Source: Pseudomonadota bacterium
GTDB lineage: Bacteria > Desulfobacterota > Desulfovibrionia > Desulfovibrionales > Desulfovibrionaceae
Length of the DNA: 45,947 nt
Direction: 5' to 3'
Assembly (NCBI GenBank): GCA_018817515.1
Contig: JAHIUD010000079.1
Span: 1-45,947 of the forward strand
The position numbers were made by a program, and so were the translations under genes. The notes beneath the pieces were generated by a model. That model saw only the letters and a list, made by a program, of their open reading frames with translations, searched no databases and was not told the origin of the DNA. Positions 3,397-6,893 of this stretch are shown piece after piece; position 1 is the stretch's first letter, and each line of letters begins with the position of its first letter.

Positions 3397-4161
3397 TCAG
3401 GCCCTGGCCAAAACCAGCACGTGCACTTGTGCGGCACCGGCGGCGCGCATCATGCGCGAACATTCTTCCAATGTCGAGCCCGTTGTCATGATGTCGTCCA
3501 CTAAAAGCGCGGTGCGCCCAGCCAGAAATTTGGGGGCACCGGCAAAGGCCCCCCGGATGTTCTCGGCCCGCTCCGAGCGGCCCAGCTCCATCTGCGGAAC
3601 CGTGCGCCGCACGCGCATGAGCGCCTCCTGCCGGATGGGCAGGCCGCGCCGCCGGGCCAAGAGCTTCGCCAGCTCCCGGCTCTGGTTGAAGCCGCGCCAG
3701 GCGAGCCGCCGCACGTGCAGCGGCACCGGCACCACCAGCTCGCAGGCCGCAAGCTCCGGGAACACGTGCGCCTGGCGTTCGAAGGCCGAGGCCAGGCATT
3801 CCTGAAGCTGGCGGCCCACGCCCAGCCGCCCCTGAAACTTGTAGGCCAGGATCAGCTCACGCAAACGCCCCTCATAAGCCCCAAAGGACACCAACCGCCC
3901 CCAGGGGCGCGGCGACTGCCGACAGGCGGCGCAGAGTGCGGACGGTTGCTGCAGAACTTCCGGCTGCGCGTCTTGCCGCTGCCCGCAGCCGGGGCAGGCC
4001 GCGACCTCCTGCGGCGCCAGCGCCAGACGGCAGTCCGGGCACAGGCTGGACTGCCGCCCAGGCCCGGCCTGGGCCACCAGCCCGCAGCCCGCACAGCGCG
4101 CCTCGTCCAGCATGAACGGGCGCGCCAGGCCTTGCAGCAGGGCCAGCCCCCGGTGGATCAT
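3397..4161 (-). CDS. ComF-family phosphoribosyltransferase-like protein
   Basis: The 254-residue protein has two N-terminal zinc-ribbon-like cysteine clusters: CAGCG..CPDC at about residues 23-43 and CPGCG..CAAC at about 56-80. A type I phosphoribosyltransferase fold follows, with the PRPP-binding loop LLVDDIMTTGST near the C-terminus and the family's FNQSRELAKLLA and VPVPLHVRRLAWRGFNQS segments. ComF proteins act in DNA uptake or recombination-linked transformation in some bacteria. In many others, including probably this one, the role is unknown. Its ATG overlaps the stop of the upstream flavoprotein gene (ATGA), so the two are coupled. No other competence gene is in view. Confidence 0.88.
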   Translation of the reverse strand: MIHRGLALLQGLARPFMLDEARCAGCGLVAQAGPGRQSSLCPDCRLALAPQEVAACPGCGQRQDAQPEVLQQPSALCAACRQSPRPWGRLVSFGAYEGRLRELILAYKFQGRLGVGRQLQECLASAFERQAHVFPELAACELVVPVPLHVRRLAWRGFNQSRELAKLLARRRGLPIRQEALMRVRRTVPQMELGRSERAENIRGAFAGAPKFLAGRTALLVDDIMTTGSTLEECSRMMRAAGAAQVHVLVLARA

Positions 4162-4823
4162 TTGAGCGCGCCCTGCGCCGCCGCCCAGGCCTCGCGCCCC
4201 AGGGCCAGGGCGCGGTCCACGGCCAGGGGATCGGCCAAAAGGTCGCCGCGCTCGTCCTTGCCGCGAAAGCCCACGGGCTCGGCCAGGGTCATGGCGAAGT
4301 TCACCAGAAAATACTTGAGGGTCAGGCGCGCGCCGTCAAATAGCTTCTGGCCCATGGGCTGGCCGCCCACCAGACAGGCGAAGCCCTGGCGCTCCGGGTA
4401 CTGAAGCAGCCAGGCGTCGCCTTTGCGACGGGCCTCCCAGAAACGCTGCGAGCGGTCGATCCAGGTCTTGCACAACGACGGCAGCGCATAGAAGTACACC
4501 GGCGAGCAGAAGACCACGCTGGGCGCGGCCAACAGCAGCGCGAACAGCTCCTCGGCCTGGTCCTTCTTGCGCAGCACGCAGGCCGACTTTTTGTCCTTGG
4601 CGCAGGCCCGGCAAGCCAGGCAGGCCAGCACATTGTAATCGCGCAGGGCCACCACACGGGCCTCGCCCCCGGCCTCCCGCACCCCGCGCGCCACCAGCTC
4701 CGCCGCAGCGTCGGAATTGCCGCCAGCCCTGTGGCTGCACTCCAGAATCAGCACGGACCTGCTCAGCTCAACGCTCCATTCAACGCTTGGCTCAACGCTT
4801 GGCTCAACGCTTGGCCCTGGCAT
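4158..4823 (-). CDS. Iron-sulfur flavoprotein (NADPH-dependent FMN reductase family)
   Basis: The 221-residue cytoplasmic protein has a flavodoxin-like fold: the FMN phosphate loop SHRAGGNSD, then PVYFYALPSLCKTWIDR. Between them lies C-x2-C-x2-C-x7-C (CLACRAC..C), the compact cysteine pattern of the Isf-type iron-sulfur flavoproteins, predicted to hold a 4Fe-4S cluster next to FMN. The role is probably low-potential electron transfer or oxidant reduction; the partner is unknown. The start at 4823 is fixed by GGAGG 6 nt upstream. The first 20 or so residues are an odd add-on, three near-identical PSVE units encoded by a 12-bp tandem repeat, absent from the usual fold. Confidence 0.85.
   Translation of the reverse strand: MPGPSVEPSVEPSVEWSVELSRSVLILECSHRAGGNSDAAAELVARGVREAGGEARVVALRDYNVLACLACRACAKDKKSACVLRKKDQAEELFALLLAAPSVVFCSPVYFYALPSLCKTWIDRSQRFWEARRKGDAWLLQYPERQGFACLVGGQPMGQKLFDGARLTLKYFLVNFAMTLAEPVGFRGKDERGDLLADPLAVDRALALGREAWAAAQGALK
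4767..4817. repeat. 12-bp tandem repeat in the flavoprotein N-terminus
   Basis: The 12-bp unit CTCAACGCTTGG (plus strand) occurs about three times in tandem, with a diverged fourth copy. On the coding (minus) strand it gives repeated PSVE. The repeat length is a multiple of three, so copy-number slippage would lengthen or shorten the N-terminus without breaking the frame. Confidence 0.75.
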
Positions 4824-4853: not shown

Positions 4854-5120
4854 TCATTCCCCGGTCCGATCGTCCGGCGTATTGCGCGGCGCATTACGCG
4901 GAACCTTGCGCGTCACGCGGGCCGCCGCATGCTCGGGATTCTCCGCGTCCGGTTCCCAGCCAAGCAGCCAGTCCCCGGCGATGAACACCGCGTCCTCCAC
5001 GTTGGGCGCCAGGCCCGCACGCACCAGGAACACCAGCTCGTCCTCGCGGCTGAAACGGAGGTGCCACCCGACCTCCATGCCCAGCCCTCAACACTTGTCG
5101 CGCAGATCTATGGTCGCCAT
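4854..5120 (-). CDS. Small conserved-looking protein, candidate selenoprotein (in-frame TGA at 5088-5090)
   Basis: Two readings are possible. The plain one is a 74-residue protein from ATG 5078, preceded by GAGGG 6 nt upstream. The other starts at ATG 5120 behind a good GGAGAGG site. It reads MATIDLRDKC, meets TGA at codon 11, and continues in the same frame (GLGMEVGWHLRF..) for 77 more residues. Three things favour reading the TGA as selenocysteine. The frame continues, a cysteine precedes the TGA directly (Cys-Sec), and a hairpin starts 11 nt after it with a GGU-containing loop, as in bacterial SECIS elements. The body (FLVRAGLAPNVEDAVFIAGDWLLGWEPD) is soluble and acidic, and the tail is Arg/Pro-rich. 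I do not recognise the family. It could also be a short leader peptide coupled to the shorter ORF, or a nonsense mutation. Confidence in the gene is higher than in Sec decoding. Confidence 0.5.
5057..5076 (-). promoter_or_regulatory. SECIS-like hairpin downstream of in-frame TGA
   Basis: On the minus strand, exactly 11 nt after the TGA at 5090-5088, a 6-bp perfect stem GGAGGT/ACCTCC encloses the loop CGGGTGGC, which contains GGU. Spacing, stem and GGU loop resemble the E. coli fdhF element (11 nt, short stem, AGGUCU loop) that SelB reads. The stem also encodes protein, as bacterial SECIS elements do. Chance GC-rich pairing is the main alternative. Confidence 0.45.
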
Positions 5121-5146
5121 GTCGCATCCTCTCCGTATGCCCGCCA

Positions 5147-5314
5147 GGGGCTCCGCCCCCGGCACCCCCGCCGGGGGAAATGATTTCCCCCGGACCCCCT
5201 CATTTGTTCGCTGCGCTTTCCCGCAGCGGTCCCCGCTGCGGGAAAGCGCAGCCCAATGGGGAGTCCAGAGGGCCTCAGGCCCTTTGGCGGGGTTCCAAGG
5301 GGCAGCGCCCCTGG
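5147..5314. repeat. Array of five GC-rich hairpins (REP/BIME-like intergenic element)
   Basis: Five consecutive inverted repeats fill the gap between two minus-strand genes. They are 5147-5159 (GGGGC/GCCCC), 5171-5193 (10-bp stem CCGGGGGAAA, loop TGA), 5210-5252 (20-bp perfect stem GCTGCGCTTTCCCGCAGCGG, loop TCC), 5265-5287 (10-bp stem, loop TCA) and about 5296-5314 (GGGGC/GCCCC with flanking pairs). The hairpin at 7-26 shares the CCCCCGGACCCCC motif. It is non-coding and its role is unknown. It may stabilise mRNA or end the upstream transcript. Confidence 0.7.
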
Positions 5315-5341
5315 CCTGCGGAGCATATTCCTTCTCTCATC

Positions 5342-5968
5342 CTACAGCATGTCGTGCAGGAAGAACGGGTTGTGCGTACGTTCGGAGTCCACGGTGGTCT
5401 CCAGGCCGTGGCCGGAATAGAGCGTGGTATCGCCCGGCAGGGTAAAGATTTTTTCCTGCACGGACTGTTTCAGCGTGGCCGAGCTCCCGCCTGGGAAATC
5501 CGTGCGGCCAACCGAGCGGTAGAAGATGAGGTCGCCCACGAAGGCCGCGCCCGCCTGGGGGAAGTAGTAGGTCAGGCTGCCGGGCGAGTGGCCGGGCGTG
5601 GGCAGGCACTGGCAGTCGAGCCCGGCGAAGGTGGCCGGGCCTTCCGGCGCGGGCGTGCTCTCAAAGGGCTCGATGACCGGGAAGCCGAACATGCCGCCCC
5701 GGCCAAGCTCGGTCTGCAAGAGCGCGGCATCGCCCGCCGGGGTGAGCACGGGCGCGCCGGTGGCGCGGGCGAGCTTGGCGCAGCCGTAGATATGGTCGAA
5801 ATGCAGGTGCGTCACCAGTATGTGCGTGAGGCTGAGCTTGTTGGCGCTCAGGTATTCGAGGACTTCGGCGGGATCGCCGCCGGGGTCCACCACCACGGCC
5901 TGCCCCAGGTGCGAGAGCACGTGGCAGTTGGTTTCAAGCGGGCCGAGGTTGAACGATTCGATGTGCAT
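5342..5968 (-). CDS. MBL-fold metallo-hydrolase, glyoxalase II-like
   Basis: The 208-residue protein has the metallo-beta-lactamase metal site THLHFDH, followed by PTPGHSPGSL, FVGDLIFYRSVGRTDFPGG and a late YSGHG. This is the YcbL/GloB-like layout of a two-metal thioester hydrolase. It lacks the C-terminal substrate domain of true glyoxalase II, so the substrate is uncertain (small thioesters or related compounds). The frame is open further upstream. GGAGG 8 nt before the ATG at 5968 (MHIESFNLG) and the family's usual start support the shorter form. It is cytoplasmic and is transcribed away from the molybdopterin oxidoreductase gene at 6123. Confidence 0.88.
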   Translation of the reverse strand: MHIESFNLGPLETNCHVLSHLGQAVVVDPGGDPAEVLEYLSANKLSLTHILVTHLHFDHIYGCAKLARATGAPVLTPAGDAALLQTELGRGGMFGFPVIEPFESTPAPEGPATFAGLDCQCLPTPGHSPGSLTYYFPQAGAAFVGDLIFYRSVGRTDFPGGSSATLKQSVQEKIFTLPGDTTLYSGHGLETTVDSERTHNPFFLHDML

Positions 5969-6122
5969 TGCGATGGCCTCCACAGGCAGTCGGACGTTGT
6001 TGCCATTTAGAGTAGCCGGGCCCGGTTCGGTTGGCAAGACCACGGCAGAATGCGTCATTGCGCCTGACCCTTCACAAGGCCGCCGCCGGTCTTATTTTAT
6101 GAGGATGCACAAGGAGCCGGAC

Positions 6123-6893
6123 ATGACGAACGCAAACAGACCTCCGCAGACGCCCCACGGGCGCCTCTCCCGCAGGAGCTTTCTCGGGGTGCTGGCCGCC
6201 CTGGCCGCCACTGCCGGTGCCTTCGCCTGGGGGCTCTTGCCCGCGCGGGCCCGCGACGCCGTCGCCAACGTTTCGGCGCGTTTCCGCACGCGCACGGTGG
6301 AGCGCCCGGACTTCCGCTTTGATGCAGCGCGCGGCGAGGTGGTCTGGGCCGACGGCCGCCGAGAGCCCTACGCCCTGACCCTGGACGGACTGGTGCAGGC
6401 CCCGGTGACCCTGAGCTACCAGGACCTGCGCGCCCTGCCCCAGGTCCGGCGCACGCTGGACTTCCACTGCGTGGAGGGCTGGAGCGTCACGGACGCGCCC
6501 TGGGGCGGCGTGGAGTTCCGCGAGCTCTTCGCCCGTGCGGCGCTCCTGCCCACGGCCAGGTACGCGGTGTTCCACTCCCTGGGGCGCACGGAGGACATCG
6601 GCGGGCTCACGCACTACGTGGAGTCCCTGCCCCTGGCCGACCTGCTGAACCCGGCCCTGGGCGCCCTGCTGGCGCTGGACCTGGAGGACGCGCCCCTGCC
6701 GGATGAGCGCGGCGCCCCGGCCCGTGTGGTCAGCCCCTTTGACCTGGCCTACAAGAGCATCAAGTTCGTCCACCGCGTGGAGTTCACCGAGGCCGCAGTG
6801 CCGGGCTGGTGGACCAGAGCCAACCCGGTCTACCCCGTGCGCGCGCCGGTGGAAAAGCAGCGCCTGCGCAGCCCGGACCCGCGCAACAGTTGA
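6123..6893 (+). CDS. Tat-exported molybdopterin-dependent oxidoreductase (sulfite oxidase/MsrP-like)
   Basis: The 256-residue protein starts with a twin-arginine signal (RLSRRSFLG, residues 14-22, then a hydrophobic Ala-rich stretch), so it is exported folded. The remainder is a single sulfite-oxidase-type molybdopterin domain with the molybdenum-ligand cysteine in DFHCVEGWSV (Cys116). SPFDLAYKSIKFVHRVEF is typical of the family. Relatives reduce methionine sulfoxide (MsrP/YedY) or act on unknown periplasmic substrates. The haem partner MsrQ is not adjacent, so the electron donor is unknown. AGGAG 6 nt before ATG 6123 sets the start. The fused TatB-TatC at 17906-19366 would serve its export. 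Confidence 0.87.
   Translation: MTNANRPPQTPHGRLSRRSFLGVLAALAATAGAFAWGLLPARARDAVANVSARFRTRTVERPDFRFDAARGEVVWADGRREPYALTLDGLVQAPVTLSYQDLRALPQVRRTLDFHCVEGWSVTDAPWGGVEFRELFARAALLPTARYAVFHSLGRTEDIGGLTHYVESLPLADLLNPALGALLALDLEDAPLPDERGAPARVVSPFDLAYKSIKFVHRVEFTEAAVPGWWTRANPVYPVRAPVEKQRLRSPDPRNS

Follow-up and report, generated by a model that had tools for sequence, protein, structure and literature searches.

A reading frame with an in-frame TGA lies between hydrolase and flavoprotein genes

The stretch of DNA analyzed here (45,947 nucleotides, referred to as the window) carries on its reverse strand a short reading frame that opens with an ATG at 5120 behind a GGAGAGG ribosome binding site, meets a TGA at codon 11 immediately after a cysteine codon, and then continues in the same frame for 77 more codons to a TGA stop (Table 1). 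A preliminary description of this DNA had pointed out these features, together with a later ATG at 5078 that has a GAGGG of its own, and all of them are present in the sequence. With the TGA at codon 11 read as selenocysteine (Sec), the predicted product has 88 residues and begins with MATIDLRDK-Cys-Sec.

Table 1. Features of the putative selenoprotein locus and its neighbors in the window
Feature	Position	Strand	Basis or remark
Putative selenoprotein gene, 88 residues, Sec at 11	4854..5120	(-)	Sequence; family alignments A1 and A2
Stop codon TGA of the putative selenoprotein gene	4854-4856	(-)	Sequence
Ribosome binding site GGAGAGG	5128..5134	(-)	Sequence
In-frame TGA, codon 11, read as Sec	5088..5090	(-)	97 distinct homologues; 10/10 of clade 2
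Cys codon TGT, codon 10, immediately 5' of the TGA	5091-5093	(-)	Sequence
Alternative ATG start of a plain 74-residue protein, unconserved	5076..5078	(-)	ATG in 27/97 members
Bacterial SECIS-type hairpin, 6 bp GGAGGU/ACCUCC, 8-nt loop CGGGUGGC	5057..5076	(-)	11 nt past the TGA
Metallo-beta-lactamase-fold hydrolase (glyoxalase II-like), upstream	5342..6058	(-)	Lactamase_B 3.2e-27
FMN_red flavoprotein with CxxCxxCx7C, downstream	4158..4823	(-)	FMN_red 3.7e-15
ComF-like phosphoribosyltransferase, next gene	3397..4161	(-)	Position; counterpart in L160 matches Pribosyltran (1e-7), window copy unscanned

For the product of the upstream hydrolase gene, the best NCBIfam match is GSH_gloB, which at 82.6 bits stays below the cut-off of 200.8. 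The start of this gene's frame is overlapped by a divergent frame on the forward strand (5820-6893) that matches Oxidored_molyb, a molybdopterin-binding oxidoreductase. The intergenic region between the hydrolase and the putative selenoprotein gene (5140-5320) is G+C-rich and shows inverted repeats by eye; a 20-base core of the suspected repeat occurs only once in the genome. Just downstream and on the same strand, where an iron-sulfur flavoprotein gene had been described, we found the FMN_red gene, in whose product the CxxCxxCx7C stretch is presumably the motif of the iron-sulfur flavoprotein type.

The TGA is conserved in a family spread over the Desulfovibrionales

A protein search in which the TGA was translated as X matched 35 of 59 genomes, and an in-frame TGA was found in 33 of 41 among the matches listed. 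A profile of 29 members (A1) matched 169 of the 348 genomes of the order Desulfovibrionales, in 35 of 59 genera; both counts include the genomes G006, G012, G491, and G492, which hold only paralogues without Sec. In a sample of 395 genomes from the phylum, A1 yielded seven matches, six from the window's own taxonomic family and one from outside the order. A search for related loci with A1 did not confirm any relative; the probable cause is that Sec was back-translated as cysteine. A PDB sequence search with the same profile gave no match.

When 105 distinct matches were aligned, TGA occupied the Sec column in 98. One of these (L103, from Flectobacillus) is a chance match of the DNA pattern and was removed, leaving 97 distinct members. 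Among the loci found by DNA pattern, 52 of 60 match the profile with L103 included, so that 51 are family members; the carriers named from this search are Humidesulfovibrio, Pseudodesulfovibrio, Desulfomicrobium, Solidesulfovibrio, Fundidesulfovibrio, Nitratidesulfovibrio, and Desulfonatronovibrio. Within an alignment of 89 of the 97 members (A2, which omits six near-duplicates as well as L071 and L092, both truncated at contig ends), D5, Sec11, and L21 never vary, and conservation is at least 90% at C10, G14, R22, and W51. Sequencing error or the decay of a single gene, considered as sources of the TGA, are excluded by its recurrence in 97 distinct sequences. The residue in front of the TGA is cysteine in 96 of these and glycine in one. 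The glycine occurs in G610 (L162, position 1530, reverse strand), suggesting either that the vicinal cysteine is not strictly needed or that the G610 copy is decaying.

To describe the neighborhood, we counted same-strand tblastn matches to the window's genes, accepting a hydrolase up to 2 kb upstream and a flavoprotein start up to 400 nt downstream. By this measure, the Lactamase_B hydrolase precedes the family gene in 67 of the 90 loci with enough flanking sequence, and the FMN_red gene follows it in 75 of 92. Both neighbors are present in 65 of the 85 loci with both flanks, neither in 16, and the flavoprotein alone in 4. The iron-sulfur-flavoprotein-like neighbor is thereby conserved in 75 of 92 loci. 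Of the 79 flavoprotein genes that were read, 66 show a CxxCxxC..C stretch. Farther out, locus L160 has a nitroreductase gene upstream and a ComF-like phosphoribosyltransferase gene downstream. In seven loci of the Solidesulfovibrio type, the upstream place is taken instead by a gene from a single cluster, identified as MoeA-PBP in L081, the only one scanned. Antisense frames were common among the clusters of next genes, these genomes being rich in G+C, and neighbor families are named only where a representative was scanned.

A hairpin downstream of the TGA is maintained by pairing

The preliminary description had also noted a 6-bp stem exactly 11 nt past the TGA, and this stem is indeed there (GGAGGU-CGGGUGGC-ACCUCC). 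The SECIS element of Escherichia coli fdhF has, we assume, the same 11-nt spacing and likewise a G/U-bearing apical loop; in contrast to fdhF-type elements, the stem sequence in the present family differs clade by clade and is tied to the encoded protein sequence. The window RNA (51 nt) folds with -23.4 kcal/mol (z -2.47), and 3 of 200 shuffled sequences folded equally well.

For the comparison between members, we used 86 distinct 45-mers located 3' of the TGA. A perfect 6-bp stem in the window's register is possible in 71 of them, and in 78 if a register shifted by two is accepted as well. Against these 78, resampling of synonymous codons, drawn from the pooled in-frame codons 45 to 180 nt past the TGA, averaged 8.5 perfect stems over 500 trials and never gave more than 19. 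A subset of 60 hand-chosen sequences (A3), which leaves out most of those in the alternative register as well as near-duplicates, has 94.5% paired cells compared with 87.0% after shuffling (none of 500 shuffles as high) and 37 cells with two-sided changes compared with 6.1. Further pair types number 8 versus 6.4, with 32 of the 500 shuffles also reaching 8. Because A3 was chosen by hand, its shuffle test rests on a selected set, whereas the resampling test takes all 86 sequences. The strongest covariation links the first base of a Val/Ile codon with the third base of a His/Tyr codon, the latter being silent in most members. By these measures, the pairing is kept and the hairpin covaries. It also fits the bacterial SECIS model as set out in the accessible part of PMC13188914, with a loop of 8 nt, a UGA-to-loop distance of 17 nt, and -8.6 to -10.1 kcal/mol.

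Cysteine counterparts and selenocysteine machinery

The family has at least 19 paralogues that lack Sec (six in A6 and thirteen found later), and all 19 among the matches listed have cysteine where the others have Sec. Their motif reads xCG[LMT][VMI]P. L240, which belongs to the thirteen, is gapped in the profile alignment and was placed by this motif and A7. Within these thirteen, the catalytic cysteine is preceded by V, A, T, S, M, or C, which means that the vicinal pair is not necessarily an ancient trait of the fold. Compared by hhalign, the Cys paralogues and the Sec family match with 98.5% (E 2e-15). In a quick tree (84 rows, 81 columns), SecI and CysP require 3 and 2 changes, respectively, and constraining either to a single clade was not rejected; the order in which the Sec and Cys forms arose could not be resolved from this tree. 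The window's genome itself also holds a Cys-Cys paralogue (G000:C103:25089-25295; L046, L167), with a hypF gene about 2.1 to 4.6 kb upstream of it.

One ortholog has lost the TGA. In G466, the sequence reads DLRQA-CPC where others have CU and is one codon longer, with the hydrolase and flavoprotein neighbors retained. Neither selA (at 1e-60) nor selB (at 1e-40) was found in this genome, which is 85% complete, while its congeners G465 and G042 have kept the TGA, selA, and selB.

The Sec machinery is present in the window's genome, with selB at 381 bits, selA at 5.1e-173, and tRNA-Sec (selC) at 83.6 bits. Over the family-positive genomes, selA was detected (1e-60) in 157 of 169; among the remaining 12, selB exceeds the cut-off in 8. 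This leaves G466, G010, G011, and G707 with neither gene. The TGA is kept without selA or selB over the cut-off in the last three, which are drafts with a completeness of 81%, 73%, and 96%, respectively. The TGA gene of G707 lies at G707:C27:12698-12916. This genome is a small contradiction, which would most simply be accounted for by a gap in its 220-contig draft.

A second clade in another class of the phylum

The single match outside the order, in G244, led into another class, where 10 of 55 genomes match A2 with E values from 1.6e-11 to 0.005. Every one of the ten matches (clade 2) has a single in-frame TGA. Both this search and a first comparison of A2 with clade 2 (97.7%) are partly circular, as A2 contains a gene of G244 (L044 of the 97 members, identical with L219 of clade 2). 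A1, which has no clade 2 member, still matches clade 2 in hhalign with 93.4% (E 2.5e-7). All ten share the motif DY-R/Q-x-D-C-U, and their hairpin occupies the same place with a different sequence (e.g., GGACGUAAGUUUACGUCU). The clade 2 loci that were read adjoin genes other than the hydrolase and flavoprotein genes of the first group. In one of them, L233, genes for a CbiK cobaltochelatase (L233:6355-7272) and a molybdopterin oxidoreductase (L233:1539-3608) are located nearby.

The predicted fold points to remote kinship with TusA

AlphaFold2, run on A2 with Sec treated as cysteine, as in all models, predicted a domain (pLDDT 91.8) with strands at residues 2-5, 28-34, 51-57, and 64-71 and helices at 13-23 and 35-48. 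The clade 2 model (pLDDT 95.5) has a first strand of only two residues and places Sec9 at the start of helix 8-21. Foldseek found no PDB match under 0.001 for the model of the window protein. Its lowest E value belonged to SpoVS (9.0e-3, TM 0.42), while a probability of 1.0 was assigned to YeeD/TsuB (TM 0.67), a SirA-like protein (0.63/0.73), and domains of RlmM and PrmA; TusA/YhhP followed at 0.58/0.62 with a probability of 0.97, with Alba proteins of lower TM in between. For clade 2, YeeD/TsuB came out on top (E 6.5e-5, TM 0.82), TusA reached a TM of 0.74, and PrmA had a TM of 0.76-0.77 as well, with weaker E values.

Sequence comparisons were less conclusive. In Pfam, the window protein had no match, TusA included, and the TusA family (PF01206) was also absent from the weak matches of the 29 A1 members. 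With E values up to 1, PF01206 was matched by four of the ten clade 2 members, the best at 1.2e-4 and 22.2 bits, below the cut-off of 28.6; BRCT_2 was also matched by four of ten (best 0.0042). The Pfam cut-off for TusA is met neither by the window protein nor by clade 2. In hhalign, all comparisons with TusA were weak for the Sec family (10.6%), A5 (17.9%), and A6 (12.9%), and only a wider profile of Cys paralogues reached 64.5%, with the carrier cysteine in register. The CPxP motif of TusA is absent, its place being taken by CUGLG in the window protein, CUxGF in clade 2, and CG[LMT][VMI]P in the Cys paralogues.

What the models do reproduce is the beta-alpha-beta-alpha-beta-beta order of TusA and a carrier residue that precedes helix 1, and the six residues from the aspartate to Sec equal the distance from aspartate to cysteine in TusA. 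On the strength of these predicted structures, we consider it highly probable that the protein folds like TusA and that Sec occupies the place of the carrier residue. Remote kinship with TusA is likely, even though formal membership in PF01206 is not reached.

Readings of the TGA

The preliminary description had proposed that a Sec reading would be borne out by relatives that carry Cys-Cys at this position or conserve the leader, by a covarying hairpin, and by selA, selB, and selC in the genome, and that relatives always starting at the later Met without a conserved leader, or a genome without selB, would refute it. The comparisons favor Sec on each of the former counts, and neither of the latter applies. 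They also satisfy what is asked of a bacterial selenoprotein, namely, an in-frame UGA at one alignment position (97 distinct members and 10 of 10 in clade 2), a SECIS hairpin just 3' of the UGA that is conserved by pairing, cysteine homologues at the Sec position, and selA, selB, and selC in the host. Computation thus supports the family, the conservation of its TGA, the Cys/Sec pairs, the hairpin, the Sec machinery, the predicted fold, and the gene order. Insertion of Sec in the cell is inferred, there being no protein or 75Se data; with this reservation, we have hardly any doubt that the frame in the window is a real selenoprotein gene.

Two readings do without Sec. The ATG at 5078 with its own GAGGG would allow a plain 74-residue protein starting at Met15, with everything upstream due to chance, and the preliminary description had kept this possibility. 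Only 27 of the 97 members have this later ATG, 67 have no ATG within the 25 codons 3' of the TGA, and 13 have no ATG, GTG, or TTG there; the short product therefore cannot be the conserved one. Moreover, D5, C10, and Sec11 of the supposed chance region are among the most conserved positions, and both the predicted first strand (residues 2 to 5) and Sec11 precede this start. The plain protein, contradicted by start codons and leader alike, was rejected as scarcely credible. Alternatively, the UGA could genuinely terminate a leader peptide of 10 residues, with the hairpin, which in the window lies near the second start, regulating the second frame. This would leave unexplained why cysteine stands at the UGA position in all 19 Sec-less paralogues among the matches listed and why the UGA is gone in G466, the genome without selA or selB matches, and it meets the same lack of a nearby ATG in 67 of 97 members. 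We rejected regulation by a leader peptide on these grounds, and regard it as no more credible than the plain protein.

A possible role of selenium in a sulfur carrier fold

TusA relatives are sulfur carriers. That the product is a selenoprotein with Sec chemistry of a TusA-like kind, the exact reaction being left open, appears probable to us. It is tempting to speculate further that selenium has replaced the sulfur-bearing cysteine of a carrier fold, giving an encoded Se-S relay that was kept across the Desulfovibrionales and in a second class and that is accompanied, over most of the first group, by a hydrolase and a flavoprotein reductase of its own. As for the selenoprotein itself, the explanation that we favor is that translation starts at ATG 5120 and that at the UGA (5090-5088) the downstream SECIS hairpin recruits SelB and Sec-tRNA, yielding the 88-residue protein. 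This protein most probably adopts the TusA/YeeD fold with Sec before helix 1, where TusA has its persulfide-carrying cysteine. The mechanism would then most likely be the following. A donor might supply the selenolate with sulfane sulfur or a different electrophilic S or O, Cys10 might resolve the resulting Se-S bond, the flavoprotein encoded next door might re-reduce the carrier, and the glyoxalase-II-like hydrolase might act on the substrate or the product. The transfer of sulfur or electrons and the identity of the partners, including the redox pair that the preliminary description suggested for the two adjacent genes, are inferred, and we put forward the relay as a whole, and sulfur transfer as its reaction, only tentatively.

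The same selenoprotein could instead use Cys-Sec as a plain redox pair. In a selenenylsulfide cycle, this pair would reduce peroxides, disulfides, or oxidants of the quinone type, the iron-sulfur flavoprotein or a nitroreductase would restore it, and the TusA fold would be mere ancestry. The adjacent Cys-Sec in 96 of 97 members speaks for such a pair, as do the flavoprotein gene downstream in 75 of 92 loci and the nitroreductase-family gene farther upstream in loci such as L160. The residue preceding the catalytic cysteine, which varies between V, T, A, S, M, and C over the 13 Cys paralogues found later, the Gly-Sec of G610, and the sulfur carrier role of TusA relatives speak against it, and we hold a plain redox pair to be possible but rather doubtful; the fold and the carrier position lead us to prefer the sulfur relay. 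Another alternative is that the protein donates selenium or sulfur for the assembly of Sec or the molybdenum cofactor, like YedF or TusA, without a separate pathway. In keeping with this, a link of the TusA-fold protein YedF to selenium metabolism is described in the accessible parts of PMC5322559 and PMC2432076, 7 loci have the MoeA-PBP-cluster gene upstream (confirmed with Pfam for L081), a molybdopterin oxidoreductase gene lies near clade 2 in L233, and Oxidored_molyb is found beside the window's hydrolase gene. However, 278 of the 348 genomes have selA and only 169 have the family, so the family is not needed for making Sec, and the window's genome already has a gene read as YedF-like. Such a donor role therefore seems improbable. 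The sulfur relay remains our preferred, if tentative, proposal.

Comparison with known families

Neither Pfam nor NCBIfam 20.0 gave a convincing match to the Sec family, clade 2, or the Cys paralogues; the best NCBIfam E value was 0.029 over the 89, 10, and 17 members scanned. A table of 119 prokaryotic selenoprotein families from 2026 (PMC13188914) has no TusA, SirA, or YeeD entry in the part accessible to us. In the accessible text of the literature consulted (including PMC9312934, PMC8318568, PMC12013277, PMC1914089, PMC5322559, PMC2432076, and PMC4607533), we found neither a description of this family nor a TusA-type selenoprotein; supplementary files and subscription papers were outside our reach, and GenBank may hold single annotated members. 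A Sec-containing "sulfurtransferase" is listed in PMC8318568, its family not being stated in the main-text passage concerned. None of the sources searched names the family, which is thus uncatalogued in them, with matches in 169 of 348 genomes of this sulfate-reducer order.

We infer that an ordinary gene caller would cut or miss such a gene. According to the passages available from PMC12013277, its authors state that deep-Sep may miss selenoproteins without Cys homologues, and no new gene is reported there for the two Desulfovibrionia genomes analyzed. The present family may exemplify what homology-filtered finders miss, its presence in those two genomes not having been established. Whole-family comparison, with the predicted TusA-like fold, reveals more than is visible from the window alone: what is probably an additional type of selenoprotein in a sulfur-moving fold, in organisms that live on sulfur chemistry. 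With Sec placed in such a fold, the question of why selenium serves sulfur transfer becomes directly testable.

Adjacent Cys-Sec is a trait shared with catalogued CU-motif selenoproteins (KCU-star, SaoC, SaoL, and CopZ-like form 2, as far as the accessible part of PMC13188914 shows); unlike those families, the present one has no NCBIfam 20.0 match better than E 0.029, with the caveat that their inclusion in this release is unverified. With TusA, SirA, and YeeD (TsuB) of PF01206, it shares the predicted fold, the strand order, and the position of the carrier residue six residues past the aspartate of strand 1, but it differs from them in the missing CPxP, in having Sec for cysteine, and in the additional cysteine before Sec. 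The TusA-like fold is also common to YedF, which has an N-terminal TusA-like domain, is tied to selenium metabolism, and is not described as a selenoprotein in the accessible parts of PMC5322559 and PMC2432076. Whereas YedF combines a cysteine in CPxP with a DsrE domain, an architecture absent here, the protein encoded in the window is a single small domain of 88 residues, without a Pfam match, that itself bears the predicted Sec.
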